From positions 310,001 through 374,000 of the forward strand of contig NZ_BMKD01000005.1 of the NCBI RefSeq assembly GCF_014643835.1: a DNA stretch of 64,000 bases, read 5' to 3'. Under the pieces are notes generated by a model that saw only the letters and a list, made by a program, of their open reading frames with translations, made no database searches and was not told the origin of the DNA. The translations under genes were made by a program, and so were the position numbers. Positions within the stretch are counted from its first letter, which is position 1; the number at the start of each line of letters is the position of its first letter. Origin of the DNA: Mucilaginibacter rubeus. GTDB taxonomy: Bacteria; Bacteroidota; Bacteroidia; Sphingobacteriales; Sphingobacteriaceae. Positions 676 to 7,999 of the stretch are shown piece after piece.

Positions 676-1686
676 TTAGGCAAAGAAATGTAATAATGCA
701 AATACACCGGCGGCAATCAGTGCCGAAATAGGTATGGTAATGATCCAGGCCCAAACCAGGTTAATGGTTACGCCCCAGCGCACGGCCGATACTCGTTTAG
801 TTAAACCCACACCTATAATTGAGCCGGTGATAGTATGTGTTGTTGAAACCGGGATCCCAAAACGCTCGGTAATAAACAGGGTGATAGCACCAGCAGTTTC
901 GGCACTTACACCTTCAAGCGGGGTAACCTTGGTTATTTTTGAGCCCATGGTTTTAACGATCTTCCAACCACCCGACATGGTGCCTGCAGCAATAGCTGAG
1001 TAACAAGCTAAAGGGATCCACTCCGGCATTACTGAACCTGGCTTTATCACTTTTGAAGCAATAAGGCTTACGTACAGGATCCCCATTACTTTTTGAGCAT
1101 CGTTACCACCGTGAGCAAAACTCAGAGCTGCCGACGATACTAACTGCATGCGTTTAAACCAGCGCTCGGCAGTGGCTGGTCTGGCAGCTTTGCACAGGTG
1201 GAGTATTAAAATGGTTACAACATAAGCTATAATTAAACCAATAAACGGGGCAAGTACGATGTAGGCAACGATTTTAAGCACATATTGCATTTCAACAGCA
1301 TGCAGGGCGTTGGCGCCCATATAAAGTGCATTAGTCATACCTGCACCTGCAAAACCGCCTATAAGGGTGTGCGACGAGCTTGAAGGGATTCCGAACCACC
1401 ATGTAAAAAGGTTCCAGGTGATGGCGGCTACCAGGCCAGCCAGGATCACGTGCAGGGTAACGTAGTGCTCCAATACGATCTTAGATACGGTATTGGCAAC
1501 CTTATGATCTTTAATAAAAAAGTAAGCTGCAAAGTTGAATACCGCGGCCATTAACACAGCCTGAAACGGTGTTAATACTTTGGTAGATACAATGGTAGCT
1601 ATAGAGTTTGCGGCATCATGAAAGCCATTGGTGTAATCAAACAACAGGGCGAGTACAACAATAACTACAAGTAGGGAAGTAACCAT
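676..1686 (-). CDS. Inorganic phosphate transporter, PitA/PHO4 family
   Basis: A 336-residue inner-membrane protein with about ten hydrophobic segments. Two internally duplicated PHO4 signatures are visible: NGFHDAANSIAT at residues 20-31 and SFAHGGNDAQKVMG at about 189-202. Each is followed by a serine-rich motif (GIPSSSSHTLIGG at 99-111; GIPVSTTHTITGS near 278), the duplicated inverted halves of this carrier family. Pit carriers take up metal-phosphate complexes driven by the proton or sodium gradient. It lies 21 bp downstream of the DUF47 gene on the same strand, the usual bacterial pairing. Length is typical of the short Bacteroidota Pit proteins. The start ATG at 1686 is the only good one before the first membrane segment. 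Confidence 0.95.
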   Translation of the reverse strand: MVTSLLVVIVVLALLFDYTNGFHDAANSIATIVSTKVLTPFQAVLMAAVFNFAAYFFIKDHKVANTVSKIVLEHYVTLHVILAGLVAAITWNLFTWWFGIPSSSSHTLIGGFAGAGMTNALYMGANALHAVEMQYVLKIVAYIVLAPFIGLIIAYVVTILILHLCKAARPATAERWFKRMQLVSSAALSFAHGGNDAQKVMGILYVSLIASKVIKPGSVMPEWIPLACYSAIAAGTMSGGWKIVKTMGSKITKVTPLEGVSAETAGAITLFITERFGIPVSTTHTITGSIIGVGLTKRVSAVRWGVTINLVWAWIITIPISALIAAGVFALLHFFA

Positions 1687-1707: not shown

Positions 1708-2358
1708 TTAAGCGTTTTTAACTAAGATTGACTCCATAACATTAGCTGCGTCTTCGCACATATCGGTAGCGGTTTCAAGAGCGGCTAATATTTCTTTGTA
1801 TTTGATAAGGCGGATAGCATCTTTTTCATACAGGAACAAGTCGGCTACAGCGCGGTCAAAAACATAATCGGCCTGGTTTTCAACACTGTTTATCCTGATG
1901 CATGAATCGGCGATATTACGCACATTCCTAAGGTCTTTCAGTTCTTTTACAGCTTTTTCCAAATCAACACTGGCCTGCAGTATCAGGTCAGATAGCTTAC
2001 GGATATGCTCATTCAAATCATCTATCCTGTACAGGCTCATGCGGTTGGCCGCACCCTGTATATAGTCGGCCACATCATCAATAGCTGTTGCAAGGGCATG
2101 GATATCTTCACGGTCAAAAGGCGTAATGAAGTTTTTGCCAAGCTCCAGGTAAATCTGGTGAGTATATTCGTCGCCTTTGTTTTCAAGCTTGTCAATCTGT
2201 TTATATAAATCCTCGCGGGTTGCAGGGTTGTTTGAGTTAACTGCTTCAACCAGTATGGTAGCCATAGCTACAACATTGGCCGCGGCTTGTTCAAACAGCG
2301 GGAAGAATATTTTTTTATCCTTGGGTACAAAATACTGGAATATACTGTTTAGCGACAT
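1708..2358 (-). CDS. DUF47 (PhoU-like) phosphate transport regulator
   Basis: A 216-residue all-helical soluble protein of the DUF47/PhoU_div family (TIGR00153-like). Conserved features include the N-terminal FFPLFEQAAANVVAMATIL helix, the acidic DKLENKGDEYTHQIYLEL stretch near residues 52-69, and TPFDREDIHALATAIDDVADYI around 78-99, which carries the metal-binding E/D-rich motif typical of PhoU relatives. Members sit beside pit genes and are thought to gate or regulate phosphate uptake. Here pit follows directly 21 bp downstream. A -7-like box (TACCTTTA, 2377-2384) lies 18 bp before the ATG, so this pair can be its own transcription unit, 48 bp after the kinase gene. Confidence 0.93.
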   Translation of the reverse strand: MSLNSIFQYFVPKDKKIFFPLFEQAAANVVAMATILVEAVNSNNPATREDLYKQIDKLENKGDEYTHQIYLELGKNFITPFDREDIHALATAIDDVADYIQGAANRMSLYRIDDLNEHIRKLSDLILQASVDLEKAVKELKDLRNVRNIADSCIRINSVENQADYVFDRAVADLFLYEKDAIRLIKYKEILAALETATDMCEDAANVMESILVKNA

Positions 2359-2406: not shown

Positions 2407-3471
2407 TTAACTTTTTAACACAGGTAAATTCGGGAAAGGAATGGTTTGCTTGGCCCTTGCCAAGGTAAAACCAAAGGTTGAACCAAGCCCTTCTGTACTG
2501 CGCACATTGATGGTTTGCTGATGGGCTTCAATAATATGCTTTACAATAGCAAGCCCCAGCCCGGAGCCACCAATTTGCCTTGAACGGCTGCTGTCTGTAC
2601 GAAAAAAACGCTCAAATAACCTTGGCAAAAACTTTTCTTCAATACCTATACCATCGTCGGTAACTTCAACCAAAACCTGGTCGTGCAGTACAAAAAGGCT
2701 TACCGAAGTGCTGCCTTCTTCTTTACCGTACTTAAACGAATTATCTATCAGGTTCACGAGCACCTGTCTTATTTTTTCCCTGTCGGCATTCACCACAATA
2801 GGCTCATCATACTTTTGCTTAAATATAAGTTTGATGTGGTACTGCTTGCCTTTGATCTCCAATGATTCAAAAACCTCTTTGATCAGGTCGTTGATCTTGA
2901 ATTTAGTATAATTGATAGGCATCTCGCCCGATTCAAGTTTGGAAATTTCATCAAGGTCTTTGATCAGGTAACTTAGCCGGTCAACATTTTTTGAAGCTTT
3001 TTCCAAAAACTGGCGGGCCATTTCCTTGTCGTCAAAATCATCATCCTGCAAGGCTTCAATGTAACCCTGGATAGCAAATAACGGGGTTTTAAACTCGTGC
3101 GAGATATTGGATAAAAAATCACGGCGAAATTTTTCCTGTTTGCGAAGTTCGTCTATCTCGGTCTTTTTCTGTTTGGCCCATTCCTTTACCTCCTGCTCTA
3201 CATCGGCAATGGGATTGGCGCTTACATGTTCGCCAAGGGCATCCCTGAGGTCGCGGCCTAATTTCAGGTTATGGATCAGTTTATAAATTAACTTGATACG
3301 GGAGTAGATGTATTTTTCGATGAGATAGTAAAAAACGAAGTAACTTACACCAAGGGCCACCGAGAAAGTAACCATTACATCGTACCATTTATGCTGAAAA
3401 TAAAAATTAACGGCCGAGAGCGTAATTGCCACGCCAAGCGAGGTTGTTAAAACCAGTACACGCAAATTCAT
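2407..3471 (-). CDS. Membrane sensor histidine kinase (PhoR-like architecture)
   Basis: A 354-residue kinase with two membrane segments (about residues 5-22 and 33-50) separated by a very short loop, then a linker and a complete kinase core. The H-box is at FLSNISHEFKTPLFAIQGY with phospho-acceptor His125. The N-box is NLIDNSFKYG (about 245), the G1 box DGIGIEE and the G2 box GGSGLGLAIVKHI. The short sensor resembles Gram-positive-type PhoR/WalK-like kinases lacking a periplasmic domain. No response regulator is adjacent, so it is an orphan in this window. It lies only 9 bp downstream of the methyltransferase gene and 48 bp upstream of the DUF47-pit pair, which suggests, without proving, a link to phosphate or envelope stress. 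Confidence 0.92.
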   Translation of the reverse strand: MNLRVLVLTTSLGVAITLSAVNFYFQHKWYDVMVTFSVALGVSYFVFYYLIEKYIYSRIKLIYKLIHNLKLGRDLRDALGEHVSANPIADVEQEVKEWAKQKKTEIDELRKQEKFRRDFLSNISHEFKTPLFAIQGYIEALQDDDFDDKEMARQFLEKASKNVDRLSYLIKDLDEISKLESGEMPINYTKFKINDLIKEVFESLEIKGKQYHIKLIFKQKYDEPIVVNADREKIRQVLVNLIDNSFKYGKEEGSTSVSLFVLHDQVLVEVTDDGIGIEEKFLPRLFERFFRTDSSRSRQIGGSGLGLAIVKHIIEAHQQTINVRSTEGLGSTFGFTLARAKQTIPFPNLPVLKS

Positions 3472-3480
3472 AGCGTAAAG

Positions 3481-4179
3481 CTACGATTTATAGATGATTA
3501 ACTCCCACCTGAAAGGCCAGCGCCATGTTAATTTAAAGTTATCAATTTGTGCTTTTTTCAATAATGCCAACAATTCGTGCCTTTTAAAACCGCGCTTAAC
3601 CGAAAGCGGACCATCGTTACGGGCCATGGCGTTACGGGTAAAAACACGGGTTATAAACACTATGGCATGGTATAAAAGCCAGTGACGGTGCAGGTCGGTA
3701 ATGATAATTCCTTTTTGTGCCGAGGCTTGCATGTTTTTAATGAGCTTAATCCAGCGCTCATCATCAAAATGGTGCGTGAACAAACTGCATATAATTATAT
3801 CGGCCGGTTTAATGAGGTATACCTCGTCAATAACATCGGCCCGGGTAAAGCTGATGTTTTTATATCCGGAGGCCTGTTGCCGTGCGTAATTTACTGCCGT
3901 TGGCGCTGCATCAATACCGTTTAGTTTAAGGTGTATTTTCTTTTCTTCAGCCCATTTTGCAATAGCTATCAAGGCATCGCCCCCGCCACACCCCCAATCG
4001 CTTACCGCATAATTATTACTTACCGCAAATTTTTTCAATGCGTTGATGATGCTTTTATGGCCACCGAATAGCGCGTTCATCTTCCCCAGGCCTTCAAGCA
4101 CAGGGGTTATTTCGGCTGATGGGAGATCAAAATCATCCATGATCTCCAGCATATCGGTACGGTAACTTAAATCGGGCAT
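3481..4179 (-). CDS. Class I SAM-dependent methyltransferase of the type III PKS locus
   Basis: A 232-residue methyltransferase. The SAM-binding motif I is DWGCGGGDALIAIAKWA starting at residue 61, followed by an acidic motif II region (LNGIDAAPTAVNYA) and a motif near IIICSLFTHHFDDE corresponding to the post-II/III strands. It lies 18 bp downstream of the FAD oxidoreductase and 9 bp upstream of the kinase, all on the minus strand. From context it probably O- or C-methylates the polyketide made by the type III PKS; the substrate cannot be read from sequence. This class of methyltransferase often neighbours type III PKS genes in Bacteroidota. Confidence 0.88.
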   Translation of the reverse strand: MPDLSYRTDMLEIMDDFDLPSAEITPVLEGLGKMNALFGGHKSIINALKKFAVSNNYAVSDWGCGGGDALIAIAKWAEEKKIHLKLNGIDAAPTAVNYARQQASGYKNISFTRADVIDEVYLIKPADIIICSLFTHHFDDERWIKLIKNMQASAQKGIIITDLHRHWLLYHAIVFITRVFTRNAMARNDGPLSVKRGFKRHELLALLKKAQIDNFKLTWRWPFRWELIIYKS

Positions 4180-4197
4180 ATAATATATACGCCTGAA

Positions 4198-5322
4198 CTA
4201 TACAAATGGTTGGCCGTGAGTTTTACTTATCAGGTATTGTGCAACAGAAGGCAGGTGATTGAGCGTATTTAAAGTAAGGGCCGTCATGTTATCGTTGCCA
4301 AACAAACGCTGTAACTGCCGGCCAACCCAAAGCCTTTGCGCAAACTGTTTGTTCCAGCTTTGGGCATAATCCTGCTCAAGGCTGGCGCGCTTTTCAGGAT
4401 TAAAGCTGCCCGGTTTATAGTGTGTAATGATCTTTTCGGAAAGGATTTTGGCCGAATGAATTGCCATGGTCATGCCGTTACCGCAAAGTGGGGCTATCAT
4501 CCCGGCGGTGTCTCCGCTCATCAGGATATGATTATCAACAGGCGCTTTTTTCTCAAAGGAGATTTCGTTGATCACTTCAGGTTTATCCAGTAAAAACCTG
4601 GCGTTACGAAAGATCTCATCGAGGTAAGGGTTTTTGCGGATCACGTTCTCTTCTAAAGCCTGTAAAGTACCATACTTGCGCAGGTCATCACGATGGGCCA
4701 TATAGCACATGCAATACCTGTCGCCATCGGTTTTGCTTACCCCACAATAGCCGTCTTTATAATTATTAAGCTGGATGAGGTCCTGTGGGAAATCCATCTG
4801 CAAATGGAATTTTACGGCCAGGTATGGGCTGCGTTTATAAAAGAACGGTCGTTTAAGTTTTTGATCGAGATTGGATCGTTTACCAAACGAGCCGATAGCC
4901 AACGGGGCTGTTAATGTTTCGCCGGGAGTTACCACTTCAAATTTTTCGCCAGCAAAACGAATATCCTCCACCCGTGTGCCTGTTAAAATATCAACTCCTT
5001 CGGCGAGGGCTTTTTGGTACAGAAAATTATCGAAAGTAAACCTGCTTAAACCAAAACCGCCCAGGTCAAGCTTTTGCGAAAGTTTGGTGCCGGATGCCGC
5101 TGTTACCTCCAGCCGGTTGATGCGGGCAACATTCAGTTCATCAAGATTGATATCCAGCGAAGACAAAAAGGGGATCACCTCGTTCGAGATATACTCGCCG
5201 CAAACGCGATGCATGGGGTAGGTTTTTTTTTCGATAACTGTAACTTTTAGCCCCGCGCGGTTTAATAATATGGCGTTAAACAATCCGGCCAGGCCCCCGC
5301 CAATTACAATTACATCGCTCAT
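4198..5322 (-). CDS. FAD-dependent oxidoreductase, geranylgeranyl reductase-like
   Basis: A 374-residue flavoprotein. It opens with a dinucleotide fold, GGGLAG at residues 8-13 followed by the glutamate of VIEKK that binds the FAD ribose. MHRVCGEYIS near residue 37 is characteristic of the geranylgeranyl reductase/group A hydroxylase branch, and the second FAD motif is MSGDTAGMIAPLCGNGMTMA around 268-287. The branch includes both prenyl reductases and aromatic monooxygenases. Since it sits 6 bp after the type III PKS and before the methyltransferase, the likely roles are ring hydroxylation to a quinone or hydroquinone, or reduction of a prenyl chain. Sequence alone does not choose between them. 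Confidence 0.88.
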   Translation of the reverse strand: MSDVIVIGGGLAGLFNAILLNRAGLKVTVIEKKTYPMHRVCGEYISNEVIPFLSSLDINLDELNVARINRLEVTAASGTKLSQKLDLGGFGLSRFTFDNFLYQKALAEGVDILTGTRVEDIRFAGEKFEVVTPGETLTAPLAIGSFGKRSNLDQKLKRPFFYKRSPYLAVKFHLQMDFPQDLIQLNNYKDGYCGVSKTDGDRYCMCYMAHRDDLRKYGTLQALEENVIRKNPYLDEIFRNARFLLDKPEVINEISFEKKAPVDNHILMSGDTAGMIAPLCGNGMTMAIHSAKILSEKIITHYKPGSFNPEKRASLEQDYAQSWNKQFAQRLWVGRQLQRLFGNDNMTALTLNTLNHLPSVAQYLISKTHGQPFV

Positions 5323-5328
5323 GATGGC

Positions 5329-6438
5329 TTAATGCATTTCAAGTATCATCCCTTCAACGGTTAAACCCGGACCGAAGGCAAAACTCAGGATCTTTTGATC
5401 GACCAGGTTACCTGCCTTCAGCATTTTATCCAGTACAAACAAAATTGTGGCCGACGACATATTACCGTACTCCTGCAAAACCTGGTAAGCAAAGGCGTTG
5501 CTTTCTTCAGGTAATTCCAGGGCGTCTTCCACTGCTTCTAAAATGGTACGCCCGCCGGGGTGAACAGCATAAGCAGTAATATCATCCATCTCAGTTTTGG
5601 CCTTTTGCAAAAAGCGCTGGGTAAGTGATTTGATATGTTTCTTAATTTGCTTGGATACCTTGGAGGTGAGTTTCATTTCAAAACCTGTGTTGCCCACATA
5701 CCAGCCCATCTCATTACGTGCTTCTGTAACAAATTCTGAATAGAAGTTTTTGAGTAAAAGGTAATTGCCACTGCCTAAACGATTGGCCGTATTTTCGACC
5801 AGTACAGCTGCAGCCCCATCCGAAAATAATGAATTGGCAACCCAGTTATCCAGCGTATTCACTTTTTGAAAATGGAGCGTACAAAGCTCTACACTAACAA
5901 CGAGCACTTTGGCACCGGCATCGGCGCGGCAGATATAGTCGGCCACCTTGAGGCCGTTTATAGCACCGTAGCAGCCCATAAAGTTGATGCAGGTACGTTC
6001 GGTATCGCGGTTTAGCTGCATCCGGTCGACAAGTTCGATATCAATCCCAGGTGCGTGCATACCCGTACAGCTAATGGTTACCAGGTGTGTAATGCTGCCG
6101 GTAATGTCATCTCCAAATTTTTGAAGGCAGTTTTTTGCGGCATTTACAGCTATGGCGATAGCTTCCTTTTCGTAAAGCTTCAACCTTTTCTGTGTGTCAG
6201 GGAATGGTTCGAGCCCTGCCGACTGTTCAAAAAAGGTGAAATCTGCCGCATCCCGATAGCCAAAATCAGGAATTACCGAATAGCGGTAATCAATTCCCGA
6301 ATGGTCATAAATCCCCTTTAATCTTGCTGCATTGGTTGCATCCAGCCCAAAGGCGTTAGCCATGAAATGGTAAATATCCTGCTGGGCAATCCGATTGGCG
6401 GGATTTGCTATCCCGATAGCACTAATGCAACTCTCCAT
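5329..6438 (-). CDS. Type III polyketide synthase (chalcone/stilbene synthase family)
   Basis: A 369-residue type III PKS of usual family length. The complete catalytic triad is present: Cys156 in INFMGCYGAINGL, His293 in YAVHPGGRTIL and Asn326 in GNMSSATILF. The C-terminal signature FAFGPGLTVEGM, equivalent to the GFGPG loop of plant chalcone synthase, is intact. The enzyme condenses a CoA- or ACP-bound starter with malonyl-CoA units to give pyrones, resorcinols or resorcylic acids. Starter specificity is not readable. It lies 18 bp after yceI and 6 bp before the FAD oxidoreductase on one strand. PKS, methyltransferase and flavoenzyme together match the gene content of phenolic-lipid operons such as srsABC of Streptomyces. 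Confidence 0.95.
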   Translation of the reverse strand: MESCISAIGIANPANRIAQQDIYHFMANAFGLDATNAARLKGIYDHSGIDYRYSVIPDFGYRDAADFTFFEQSAGLEPFPDTQKRLKLYEKEAIAIAVNAAKNCLQKFGDDITGSITHLVTISCTGMHAPGIDIELVDRMQLNRDTERTCINFMGCYGAINGLKVADYICRADAGAKVLVVSVELCTLHFQKVNTLDNWVANSLFSDGAAAVLVENTANRLGSGNYLLLKNFYSEFVTEARNEMGWYVGNTGFEMKLTSKVSKQIKKHIKSLTQRFLQKAKTEMDDITAYAVHPGGRTILEAVEDALELPEESNAFAYQVLQEYGNMSSATILFVLDKMLKAGNLVDQKILSFAFGPGLTVEGMILEMH

Positions 6439-6456
6439 TAAAAATGATTAAGCGTT

Positions 6457-6984
6457 TTATTTGCTGATCTCCGCCTCAACCGAAACATTGGCCTCATTTG
6501 AAAGGATCAGGTTTTTGCCGCCTATGCCAAAATCTGTCCTCAAAATCATAAAGTTTCCTTTCAGTTGTGCTGTATTACCTGATTCCGTATACGTAAAAGG
6601 TACTTCAATCAACTTTGTTTTATCTCTTATAGTTACGTTAAAATTGCCGGTATAGTTGCTCCCGCTTTTACGTTTAAAGGAAACTGACTTTAGCGTGATC
6701 TTTGGATATTTAATTACGTCAAAATAATCTTCGCTTTTAAGATGCTTATCACGGCTTTCGTTATCGGTATTAACAGTGTTGGATAACACTGACGCTTCAA
6801 TAGAGCTGCCCTCCAGGTCATTAGGCTTAAATTTAATATCAGCCTGCAAACCGCCGAAGGTGCCGCCAACATTAAAGCCAAGGTTTTTAATCTTAAAGCT
6901 GATATCTGATTTAGATACTGTTTGCGCGAAGCCCGCTGTCGTCGCGAAAATTAAAAGTACAACTATATAAATTTTCTTATTCAT
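6457..6984 (-). CDS. YceI-family secreted lipocalin-like protein
   Basis: A 175-residue protein with a clear signal peptide (MNKKIYIVVLLIFATTAGFAQ) followed by a YceI beta-barrel: SKSDISFKIKNLGFNVGGTFGGL, VLSNTVNTDNESRDKHLKSEDYFDV and YPKITLKSVSFK are the standard family blocks. YceI proteins are periplasmic and known members bind polyprenyl or other long hydrophobic chains. It is the first gene of the minus-strand operon yceI-PKS-FAD-methyltransferase and is divergent from ubiA. A role as carrier of the prenylated or lipid product is attractive but inferred. Confidence 0.93.
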   Translation of the reverse strand: MNKKIYIVVLLIFATTAGFAQTVSKSDISFKIKNLGFNVGGTFGGLQADIKFKPNDLEGSSIEASVLSNTVNTDNESRDKHLKSEDYFDVIKYPKITLKSVSFKRKSGSNYTGNFNVTIRDKTKLIEVPFTYTESGNTAQLKGNFMILRTDFGIGGKNLILSNEANVSVEAEISK

Positions 6985-7002
6985 GTTACATTAACGCTGT
7001 TT

Positions 7003-7010
7003 CAAACATA
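7003..7010 (-). promoter_or_regulatory. -7 box for the yceI-PKS operon
   Basis: TATGTTTG on the minus strand fits the TAnnTTTG -7 consensus exactly, 18 bp upstream of the yceI ATG, in the 130-bp divergent region shared with ubiA. A TTG at the expected -33 distance was not seen. Confidence 0.4.
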
Positions 7011-7114
7011 ATAATTTATACTGAAGGAATTTTGTACTTAAGGTTGTATGTTTATAACCATAATCAGGCAACCTGATGTTGCCTCCGGCAGTAATTATAA
7101 TGTAAAAACACGCC

Positions 7115-7999
7115 ATGAAGTTTAAACAATTTATCCCTACCCGGTCGGCATTTGCGCATTTAAGGTTTGTGTTTTCTGTTTTTTTGCTGCCGGTGTACCT
7201 GTTTGCCTTTAGCCAGGCCGATGTGGTGAAAGCTTCAACAGCCGTACTTGTATTTTTTATATGGCATTTCCTTGCTTTCCCGGCCAGCAATGGCTATAAC
7301 AGTTATTTTGATAAGGATGAAGATAGCATTGCCCTGTTAGCCAAACCGCCCGAAGTGGATCTCAGCCTGTATTATTTTTCCATTCTGCTGGAGGTTATTG
7401 CGTTTTTGCTTGGCTTTATCATTAGCTGGGAGTTTGCCTTTGCGGTGCTCATTTATGGCATTATGTCAAAATTATACAGCCATCCTGCTACCCGGTTAAA
7501 AAAATATCCGATTATCAGCTTTTTAACGGTGTTTATTTTCCAGGGATGTTTTATTTATTACACCACCTATACCGCTTTGACCGGTACGAGCCTGTTTGGT
7601 CATTGGGATTTAGACCTGATTATTCCGGGGGCTATCAGCTCCTGCCTCATTGGGGCATCATACCCCTTAACCCAGGTTTATCAGCATGAAGAAGACAGCA
7701 GGCGGGGCGATAAAACGCTTAGTATCGTTTTAGGCTACAAAGGCTCCTTTATTTTTTCGGGCGTATTGTTTGCCGCGGGGATAGCCCTTTCTTACTGGTA
7801 TTGGCACCTGGCTGGGATGATGCTTAACTTTTATTTCTTTATAGTATGCGCCGCGCCAATATTTTTCTTTTTTAATTATTGGTTTTATAAAGTAGGGCGA
7901 TCGACAGCCAACGCTAATTTTAAAAACGCCATGCGTATGAATTTCATCAGCTCGGGTTGTATGCTGGTTTATTTCGGAGTGCTGGCGGTGTTTAGTTGA
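7115..7999 (+). CDS. UbiA-superfamily prenyltransferase
   Basis: A 294-residue membrane protein with about eight to nine hydrophobic segments. The first prenyl-diphosphate/Mg motif is NSYFDKDED, that is Asn62, Asp66 and Asp70 (NxxxDxxxD), and the second is HEEDSRRGDKT, with Asp194 and Asp199. UbiA enzymes attach an isoprenoid chain to an aromatic acceptor in the membrane. It is transcribed away from the yceI-PKS operon, with only 130 bp between the two starts, so the locus looks like a divergent pair of co-regulated units. The aromatic acceptor could be the type III PKS product; menaquinone biosynthesis (MenA) is an alternative, but no men genes are nearby. Confidence 0.9.
   Translation: MKFKQFIPTRSAFAHLRFVFSVFLLPVYLFAFSQADVVKASTAVLVFFIWHFLAFPASNGYNSYFDKDEDSIALLAKPPEVDLSLYYFSILLEVIAFLLGFIISWEFAFAVLIYGIMSKLYSHPATRLKKYPIISFLTVFIFQGCFIYYTTYTALTGTSLFGHWDLDLIIPGAISSCLIGASYPLTQVYQHEEDSRRGDKTLSIVLGYKGSFIFSGVLFAAGIALSYWYWHLAGMMLNFYFFIVCAAPIFFFFNYWFYKVGRSTANANFKNAMRMNFISSGCMLVYFGVLAVFS

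Follow-up and report, generated by a model that had tools for sequence, protein, structure and literature searches.

A type III polyketide synthase co-inherited with a UbiA-superfamily protein at a Mucilaginibacter rubeus locus

We analysed a locus of Mucilaginibacter rubeus centred on a type III polyketide synthase (PKS), within a stretch of 64,000 nucleotides (contig NZ_BMKD01000005.1, positions 310,001 to 374,000; hereafter the window). By synteny and co-inheritance, the PKS, a UbiA-superfamily membrane protein, a flavin adenine dinucleotide (FAD) enzyme and a class I S-adenosylmethionine (SAM)-dependent methyltransferase (MT) are one biosynthetic unit. We lean towards the view that this unit makes a prenylated, hydroxylated and methylated long-chain membrane lipid or quinone of the alkylresorcinol type, in a pathway that would leave out the adjoining YceI gene and the genes for a histidine kinase (HK), a DUF47 protein and a PitA-type transporter. 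The gene set so defined could account for a prenylated phenolic lipid, or an additional quinone, in a large group of bacteria, and its UbiA subfamily is marked by changes in the active site. An earlier reading of the letters alone (the original prediction) had described five ORFs here, from the MT to the UbiA gene; all five are intact where it placed them, and the Pfam names agree.

Co-inheritance and synteny of the unit

Firstly, we assayed co-occurrence. In a sample of 395 genomes from the class, the UbiA subfamily was present in all 77 genomes that carry the window's PKS clade (clade A), a set in which G777 is represented by a fragment at a contig end (100 bits) and G724 by a partial match (238 bits). 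The two genes lie within 1 kb of each other in 66 of these genomes and within 2 kb in 3 more; in the other 8 they are distant or on other contigs. In a second sample of 395 genomes, drawn from the phylum, the 26 genomes with a PKS of at least 412 bits are the same 26 that have a UbiA protein of at least 240 bits; the UbiA gene falls inside the stretch taken around the PKS in 20 of them and the pair is unlinked in 6. The score limits of the PKS clade, including the 412-bit line, were set by eye at gaps in the score lists. The two samples overlap partly, and 64 genomes with either gene lie outside the first 26; both genes are present in 56 of these, hence the class sample is largely a replication. 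Within the genus (61 genomes), UbiA occurs in 13, all among the 17 PKS genomes, and the subfamily was not found in the 44 genomes of this sample that lack a clade A PKS. The co-occurrence check thus bears out the PKS-UbiA link that had been proposed (77 of 77 class-sample genomes, 26 of 26 top scorers of the phylum sample). That the two genes are retained together whether or not they are linked argues strongly for a pathway still to be assigned.

That the UbiA gene is a mere chance or locus-level neighbour of the PKS is highly improbable and already contradicted. Related loci do share neighbours by descent, and the Fisher p-values for co-occurrence, though tiny, were computed ignoring relatedness. 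Against this, the co-occurrence persists where the genes are unlinked (the 8 of 77 above) and in both tandem and divergent layouts: among the 66 pairs within 1 kb, 46 are tandem, 20 divergent and none convergent. Moreover, UbiA is absent together with the PKS in relatives where the intervening YceI gene stays.

Secondly, we compared gene neighbourhoods in the best 80 of at least 568 confirmed PKS matches, a set of named genomes skewed to near kin and Hymenobacter. Within seven genes of the PKS, the FAD enzyme was found in 70 of these 80 loci, the MT in 66 and UbiA in 31. In the 26 phylum-sample genomes, an MT lies near the PKS in at least 22 and an FAD enzyme in at least 20, with G206 counted as a miss on a short stretch where the simple gene caller probably chose other ORFs. 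In 20-kb stretches from nine genomes of the genus, the order YceI-PKS-FAD-MT-HK-DUF47 is found in all nine, PitA comes next in eight, and eight have a divergent UbiA gene, the exception being G003, which lacks UbiA. The usual layout in Sphingobacteriales beyond Mucilaginibacter is a UbiA gene divergent from PKS-MT-FAD, without YceI, and several metagenome-assembled genomes (MAGs) of Cytophagales show the order UbiA-PKS-MT, most of them with the FAD gene nearby. Loci of Hymenobacter, Rufibacter and Pontibacter are mostly FAD-PKS-MT, with UbiA not alongside; in one family (f24), FAD-PKS-MT stands without adjacent UbiA in two of three genomes, and UbiA is found elsewhere in the genome in all three. 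Short or negative gaps separate PKS, UbiA and MT in several loci, where overlaps may be overstated since the gene caller uses the first start codon. Hence the PKS and UbiA, usually with a methyltransferase and an FAD enzyme, form one conserved unit, as had been supposed from the window alone. At two loci (L061 and L063) the FAD gene is in two ORFs, through a frameshift or an assembly error.

The four enzymes and their candidate product

The PKS is intact, as originally described. It carries the N and C domains of Chal_sti_synt (97.0 and 89.8 bits, Pfam cut-off 27), and the catalytic triad C156, H293 and N326 is present in all 135 aligned PKS rows. By profile, its nearest solved enzymes are Steely1 (2h84), a brown-algal PKS (4b0n), 7cb3 and PKS18 (1ted). 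Residue C186 aligns with the tunnel residue Cys205 of PKS18 in 1ted, a position that reads F in 1tee; it is Cys in all 117 rows outside a second PKS clade of the genus (clade B, below) and in 17 of the 18 clade B rows. The tunnels of PKS18 and 4b0n bind long acyl chains (PMC6274091, in excerpt). Identity with DpgA, the 3,5-dihydroxyphenylacetyl-CoA synthase, was rejected (150.1 bits versus an NCBIfam equivalog cut-off of 425).

The UbiA protein matches the Pfam UbiA family at 75.5 bits (cut-off 34.2). Its fold is confirmed by structure comparison, in which the best matches are bound to dimethylallyl diphosphate and geranyl diphosphate; when the UbiA profile was searched against the sequences of solved structures, nothing matched up to E = 1. 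Two Asp-rich motifs had been claimed for it. The first is present (N62, D66, D68); the second is non-canonical: the place of its first Asp is taken by Gln190 in 57 of 57 subfamily rows, whereas 34 of the 36 other UbiA-family rows keep the Asp. In a quick tree the subfamily branches apart from MenA, MqnP-like and CtaB rows, so it does not group with MenA, the grouping that by the original prediction's own terms would have refuted it. MenA and MqnP were therefore both rejected as identities: the clade is separate, and neither model is among the three NCBIfam matches of the window UbiA.

The best NCBIfam match of the FAD enzyme, TIGR02032 (geranylgeranyl reductase family), scores 98.8 bits, below its cut-off of 158.8. 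The predicted structure (predicted local distance difference test score, pLDDT, 89.4) has flavin monooxygenases and halogenases as its best Foldseek matches, 3-hydroxybenzoate 6-hydroxylase among them; the reductase-like 3oz2 stands at rank 35, with close E-values. We thus rejected a clear geranylgeranyl reductase, and hydroxylation is the preferred candidate step for this enzyme. The best NCBIfam match of the MT, PRK06202, is likewise below its cut-off (144 versus 243 bits), and in Pfam the protein matches class I SAM families only, not ICMT.

From these families and folds a pathway can be proposed. The PKS would load a long-chain fatty acyl starter on Cys156, extend it with malonyl-CoA and cyclise the chain, most likely to an alkylresorcinol-type phenol. 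The membrane-bound UbiA protein would then add an isoprenoid chain to the ring, the FAD enzyme would hydroxylate the ring or, less likely, reduce the prenyl chain, and the MT would methylate the ring product. The resulting prenylated phenolic lipid or quinone would remain in the membrane.

Several observations weigh against this reading. Four of the 17 Mucilaginibacter PKS genomes are without UbiA (G003, G443, G444 and G455), implying that prenylation is dispensable in them, and in the class sample 8 of 85 UbiA genomes are without clade A, incompleteness explaining not all of these. A further 83 phylum-sample genomes carry a distant PKS (285 to 388 bits), and in 48 of the 83 UbiA was not matched at E 1e-8. 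Of the 83, 45 fall in a single family, f39 (probably Flavobacteriaceae), and 35 of its 45 genomes have a weaker sister UbiA (44 to 144 bits), which is unlinked to the PKS in G105, the one genome with both loci read; the remaining 38 genomes, from twelve families, gave no UbiA match at the same threshold. The pairing is thus a trait of the window's PKS clade, perhaps also of f39, and not of the whole PKS family. Other UbiA proteins generally have an Arg after motif 1 and an Asp at the start of motif 2; this one has a different residue at both positions, so that its diphosphate chemistry could differ. In the PKS, the mode of cyclisation is left undecided by Trp246. In ArsB, Trp281 is a switch to resorcinols (PMC6274091, in excerpt). 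Judged by spacing, W246 would fit, as it sits 9 residues before M255, like G284 and M293 of ArsC; however, Trp246 is also present in 17 of 18 clade B rows, and a Trp stands in the same column when PKS11, which is a pyrone synthase, is aligned with clade B. We therefore rejected Trp246 as proof of resorcinol formation. In G105, the distant f39 PKS (locus L226) has as neighbours a methyltransferase and an FAD_binding_3 enzyme of another kind (162 bits).

The variant second motif and the four genomes without UbiA also speak for another reading, which we regard as unlikely: that the unit makes an unprenylated or otherwise modified phenolic lipid or alkylpyrone, with the UbiA-fold protein acting as a non-canonical transferase or cyclase. 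A UbiA-fold phosphoribosyltransferase (8j8k, 8j8j) shows that the fold supports other chemistry.

Quite unlikely, in our estimate, is an alternative respiratory quinone pathway whose product would resemble the polyketide quinones known from mycobacteria and Streptomyces and bear a prenyl tail in addition. PKS, MT and oxidoreductase do make up the polyketide-quinone gene set of the pkqABC operon of those bacteria, which differs in that UbiA or prenyl is mentioned 0 times in the accessible part of the text (PMC9927152). The FAD model resembles ring hydroxylases such as 3-hydroxybenzoate 6-hydroxylase, and of the 181 genomes of the phylum sample in which a type III PKS was matched (E 1e-20), 177 have exactly one, as for a core function; this suggests a single-copy core role for the synthase and not variable secondary metabolism. 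Against a respiratory quinone, the same genomes carry menaquinone-route genes. The nearest genome of the comparison set, G001, which has 46% of sampled words in common with the window, encodes an MqnP-like UbiA protein (TIGR01475 above cut-off) and two matches to futalosine-route families; MenA was not matched in it at E 0.1. MenA coexists with the PKS-linked UbiA in G039, G104 and G112. G001 also carries, at locus L212, an EboC equivalog (405.9 bits) beside ORFs that by eye are 3-dehydroquinate-synthase-like and TatD-like hydrolase genes, which suggests an ebo cluster in Mucilaginibacter.

Known clusters and the second PKS clade

The prenylated product that we favour has parallels of varying closeness. 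In plant meroterpenoid routes, a type III PKS supplies olivetolic acid or orsellinic acid to a UbiA-family prenyltransferase. The inferred order, a type III PKS phenol and then UbiA prenylation, is the same; the plant routes differ in their unrelated lineages, the lack of an operon and short side chains. The original prediction had likened the locus to srsABC of Streptomyces, a likeness that holds for the PKS, MT and FAD enzyme classes in one operon and fails for the MT, which is a class I SAM enzyme and not ICMT.

Among published clusters, each known here from part of its source, that of Gephyromycinifex aptenodytis, a cluster like the alkylresorcinol cluster of S. griseus, likewise holds adjacent genes for UbiA, a type III PKS, a methyltransferase and an FAD-dependent oxygenase (PMC8779670). 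It differs in its ICMT-family methyltransferase and in belonging to Actinomycetota, is likened here by gene content alone, and was proposed on bioinformatic grounds for angucyclines; in its source it is a cluster of UbiA, STS, ICMT and FAD oxygenase. The losA locus of Micromonospora endolithica, for loseolamycins, also has genes for UbiA, a methyltransferase and a type III PKS in a span of four, with an acyl-CoA dehydrogenase in place of the FAD monooxygenase-like enzyme; alkylresorcinols appear when losA is activated, and the part of the source available states no UbiA role (PMC7587189). Another cluster of Actinomycetota combines a type III PKS, lycopene cyclase, UbiA and an AurF-like protein (PMC4239341), and one cyanobacterial cluster has a prenyltransferase (PMC8086630). 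With such UbiA-containing clusters reported in Actinomycetota, the Bacteroidota unit is a variant of a known cluster type. Type III PKS make up 10.74% of Flavobacteriaceae clusters (PMC10734526, in excerpt). In the accessible parts of the literature no PKS-UbiA product was found for Bacteroidota, in line with the earlier statement that this gene set has no characterised product.

The genus has a second type III PKS, clade B, about 33% identical to clade A, with PKS11 as its nearest solved structure. Among the 61 Mucilaginibacter genomes, 41 carry clade B, 17 clade A and 4 neither; both occur only in G008. A PKS with a clade B-like score occurs in 34 genomes of the class sample, of which none has clade A and one has UbiA. 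At eight clade B loci of the genus (L032 to L035 and L037 to L040), the PKS has a neighbour of 162-165 aa, of the ICMT family by the one protein tested. This is also a pair of type III PKS and methyltransferase, and differs from the window's unit by its ICMT-type neighbour and by having no UbiA; we take it to resemble bpsAB. Locus L036, from another family (f2), scores like clade B and has MT and FAD genes and no UbiA. On a tree covering 58 of these 61 genomes, each of the two clades shows only 5 changes, and a sign test on the 4 pairs that are independent gives a median p of 0.5. With so few tree events, significance of the mutual exclusion was rejected, and replacement of clade A by clade B is suggestive. 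A broader proposal, possible though doubtful, is that throughout the window's class the PKS forms an old and nearly obligate pair with a UbiA protein whose diphosphate site is non-canonical. The pair would make an undescribed class of prenylated polyketide membrane lipids or quinones, and in other lineages of Mucilaginibacter a PKS-ICMT pair would have taken over an equivalent role.

Locus layout and resident neighbours

The features are collected in Table 1. The operon reads YceI-PKS-FAD-MT, then HK after a 9-bp gap, DUF47 and PitA, with UbiA divergent; it is longer than originally drawn, when it ended at 3481. By eye, no response regulator gene adjoins the HK gene among the window ORFs. The window PKS is 99% identical to that of M. 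gossypii Gh-67.

Table 1. Features of the locus, in window coordinates
Feature	Coordinates	Strand	Basis or remark
UbiA-superfamily membrane protein, 294 aa	7115..7999	+	PKS-linked subfamily; variant second motif Q190 H191 xx D194
Intergenic region, 130 bp, between divergent UbiA and YceI-PKS units	6985..7114	none	
YceI-domain protein, probably a resident neighbour rather than a pathway enzyme	6457..6984	-	Pfam YceI
Type III PKS, 369 aa	5329..6438	-	Cys156, His293, Asn326; Pfam Chal_sti_synt N + C
FAD enzyme, group A monooxygenase / halogenase / geranylgeranyl-reductase fold	4198..5322	-	
Class I SAM-dependent MT	3481..4179	-	Pfam Methyltransf_31/25
PhoR/PnpS-like HK, 9 bp from MT gene	2407..3471	-	NCBIfam PnpS and PhoR best, both below cut-offs
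DUF47 (PhoU-like) protein; family presumed	1708..2358	-	ORF; match in 60/61 genus genomes
PitA-type phosphate transporter, by sequence reading; family presumed	676..1686	-	ORF; gene order conserved in relatives

The place of YceI is indicated by relatives without the PKS. The locus was read in 20 of the 44 Mucilaginibacter genomes that lack the PKS: in 16, YceI is immediately followed by HK-DUF47-PitA, while a single small ORF in 3, and two ORFs in 1, separate it from HK. Given this order, PKS-FAD-MT lies between YceI and HK in the window, with UbiA beyond YceI. That PKS-FAD-MT and UbiA are absent together while YceI stays favours a joint function of PKS and UbiA and not membership of YceI. 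YceI was hence rejected as a pathway gene, and YceI-HK-DUF47-PitA is a resident locus of Mucilaginibacter. The periplasmic carriage of the product that had been ascribed to YceI is not supported, on the same ground and on the rarity of the association: YceI adjoins the PKS in only 11 of the 80 compared loci, ten from Mucilaginibacter and one from a Sphingobacteriaceae MAG. Shared transcription with HK-DUF47-PitA may nevertheless link expression of the pathway to phosphate.

UbiA is divergent from YceI, and the gap measures 130 bp, as noted originally. This layout may allow the joint control originally suggested; among the 66 close pairs of the class sample, though, tandem (46) is commoner than divergent (20). 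In the gap, two perfectly matching 7-bp arms spaced 5 bp apart form an inverted repeat (7066-7072/7078-7084), both arms of which are present in 3 of the 8 UbiA-YceI gaps compared. Ahead of YceI, a TATGTTTG box lies on the minus strand, which we take to resemble the -7 element of Bacteroidota.

In G008, the genome with both PKS clades, DUF47 is present twice (L027, L301), once next to the PKS and once at another site; this may point to a transferred locus. A second similar DUF47 copy is also present in G025, G438 and G457, which are without clade A.

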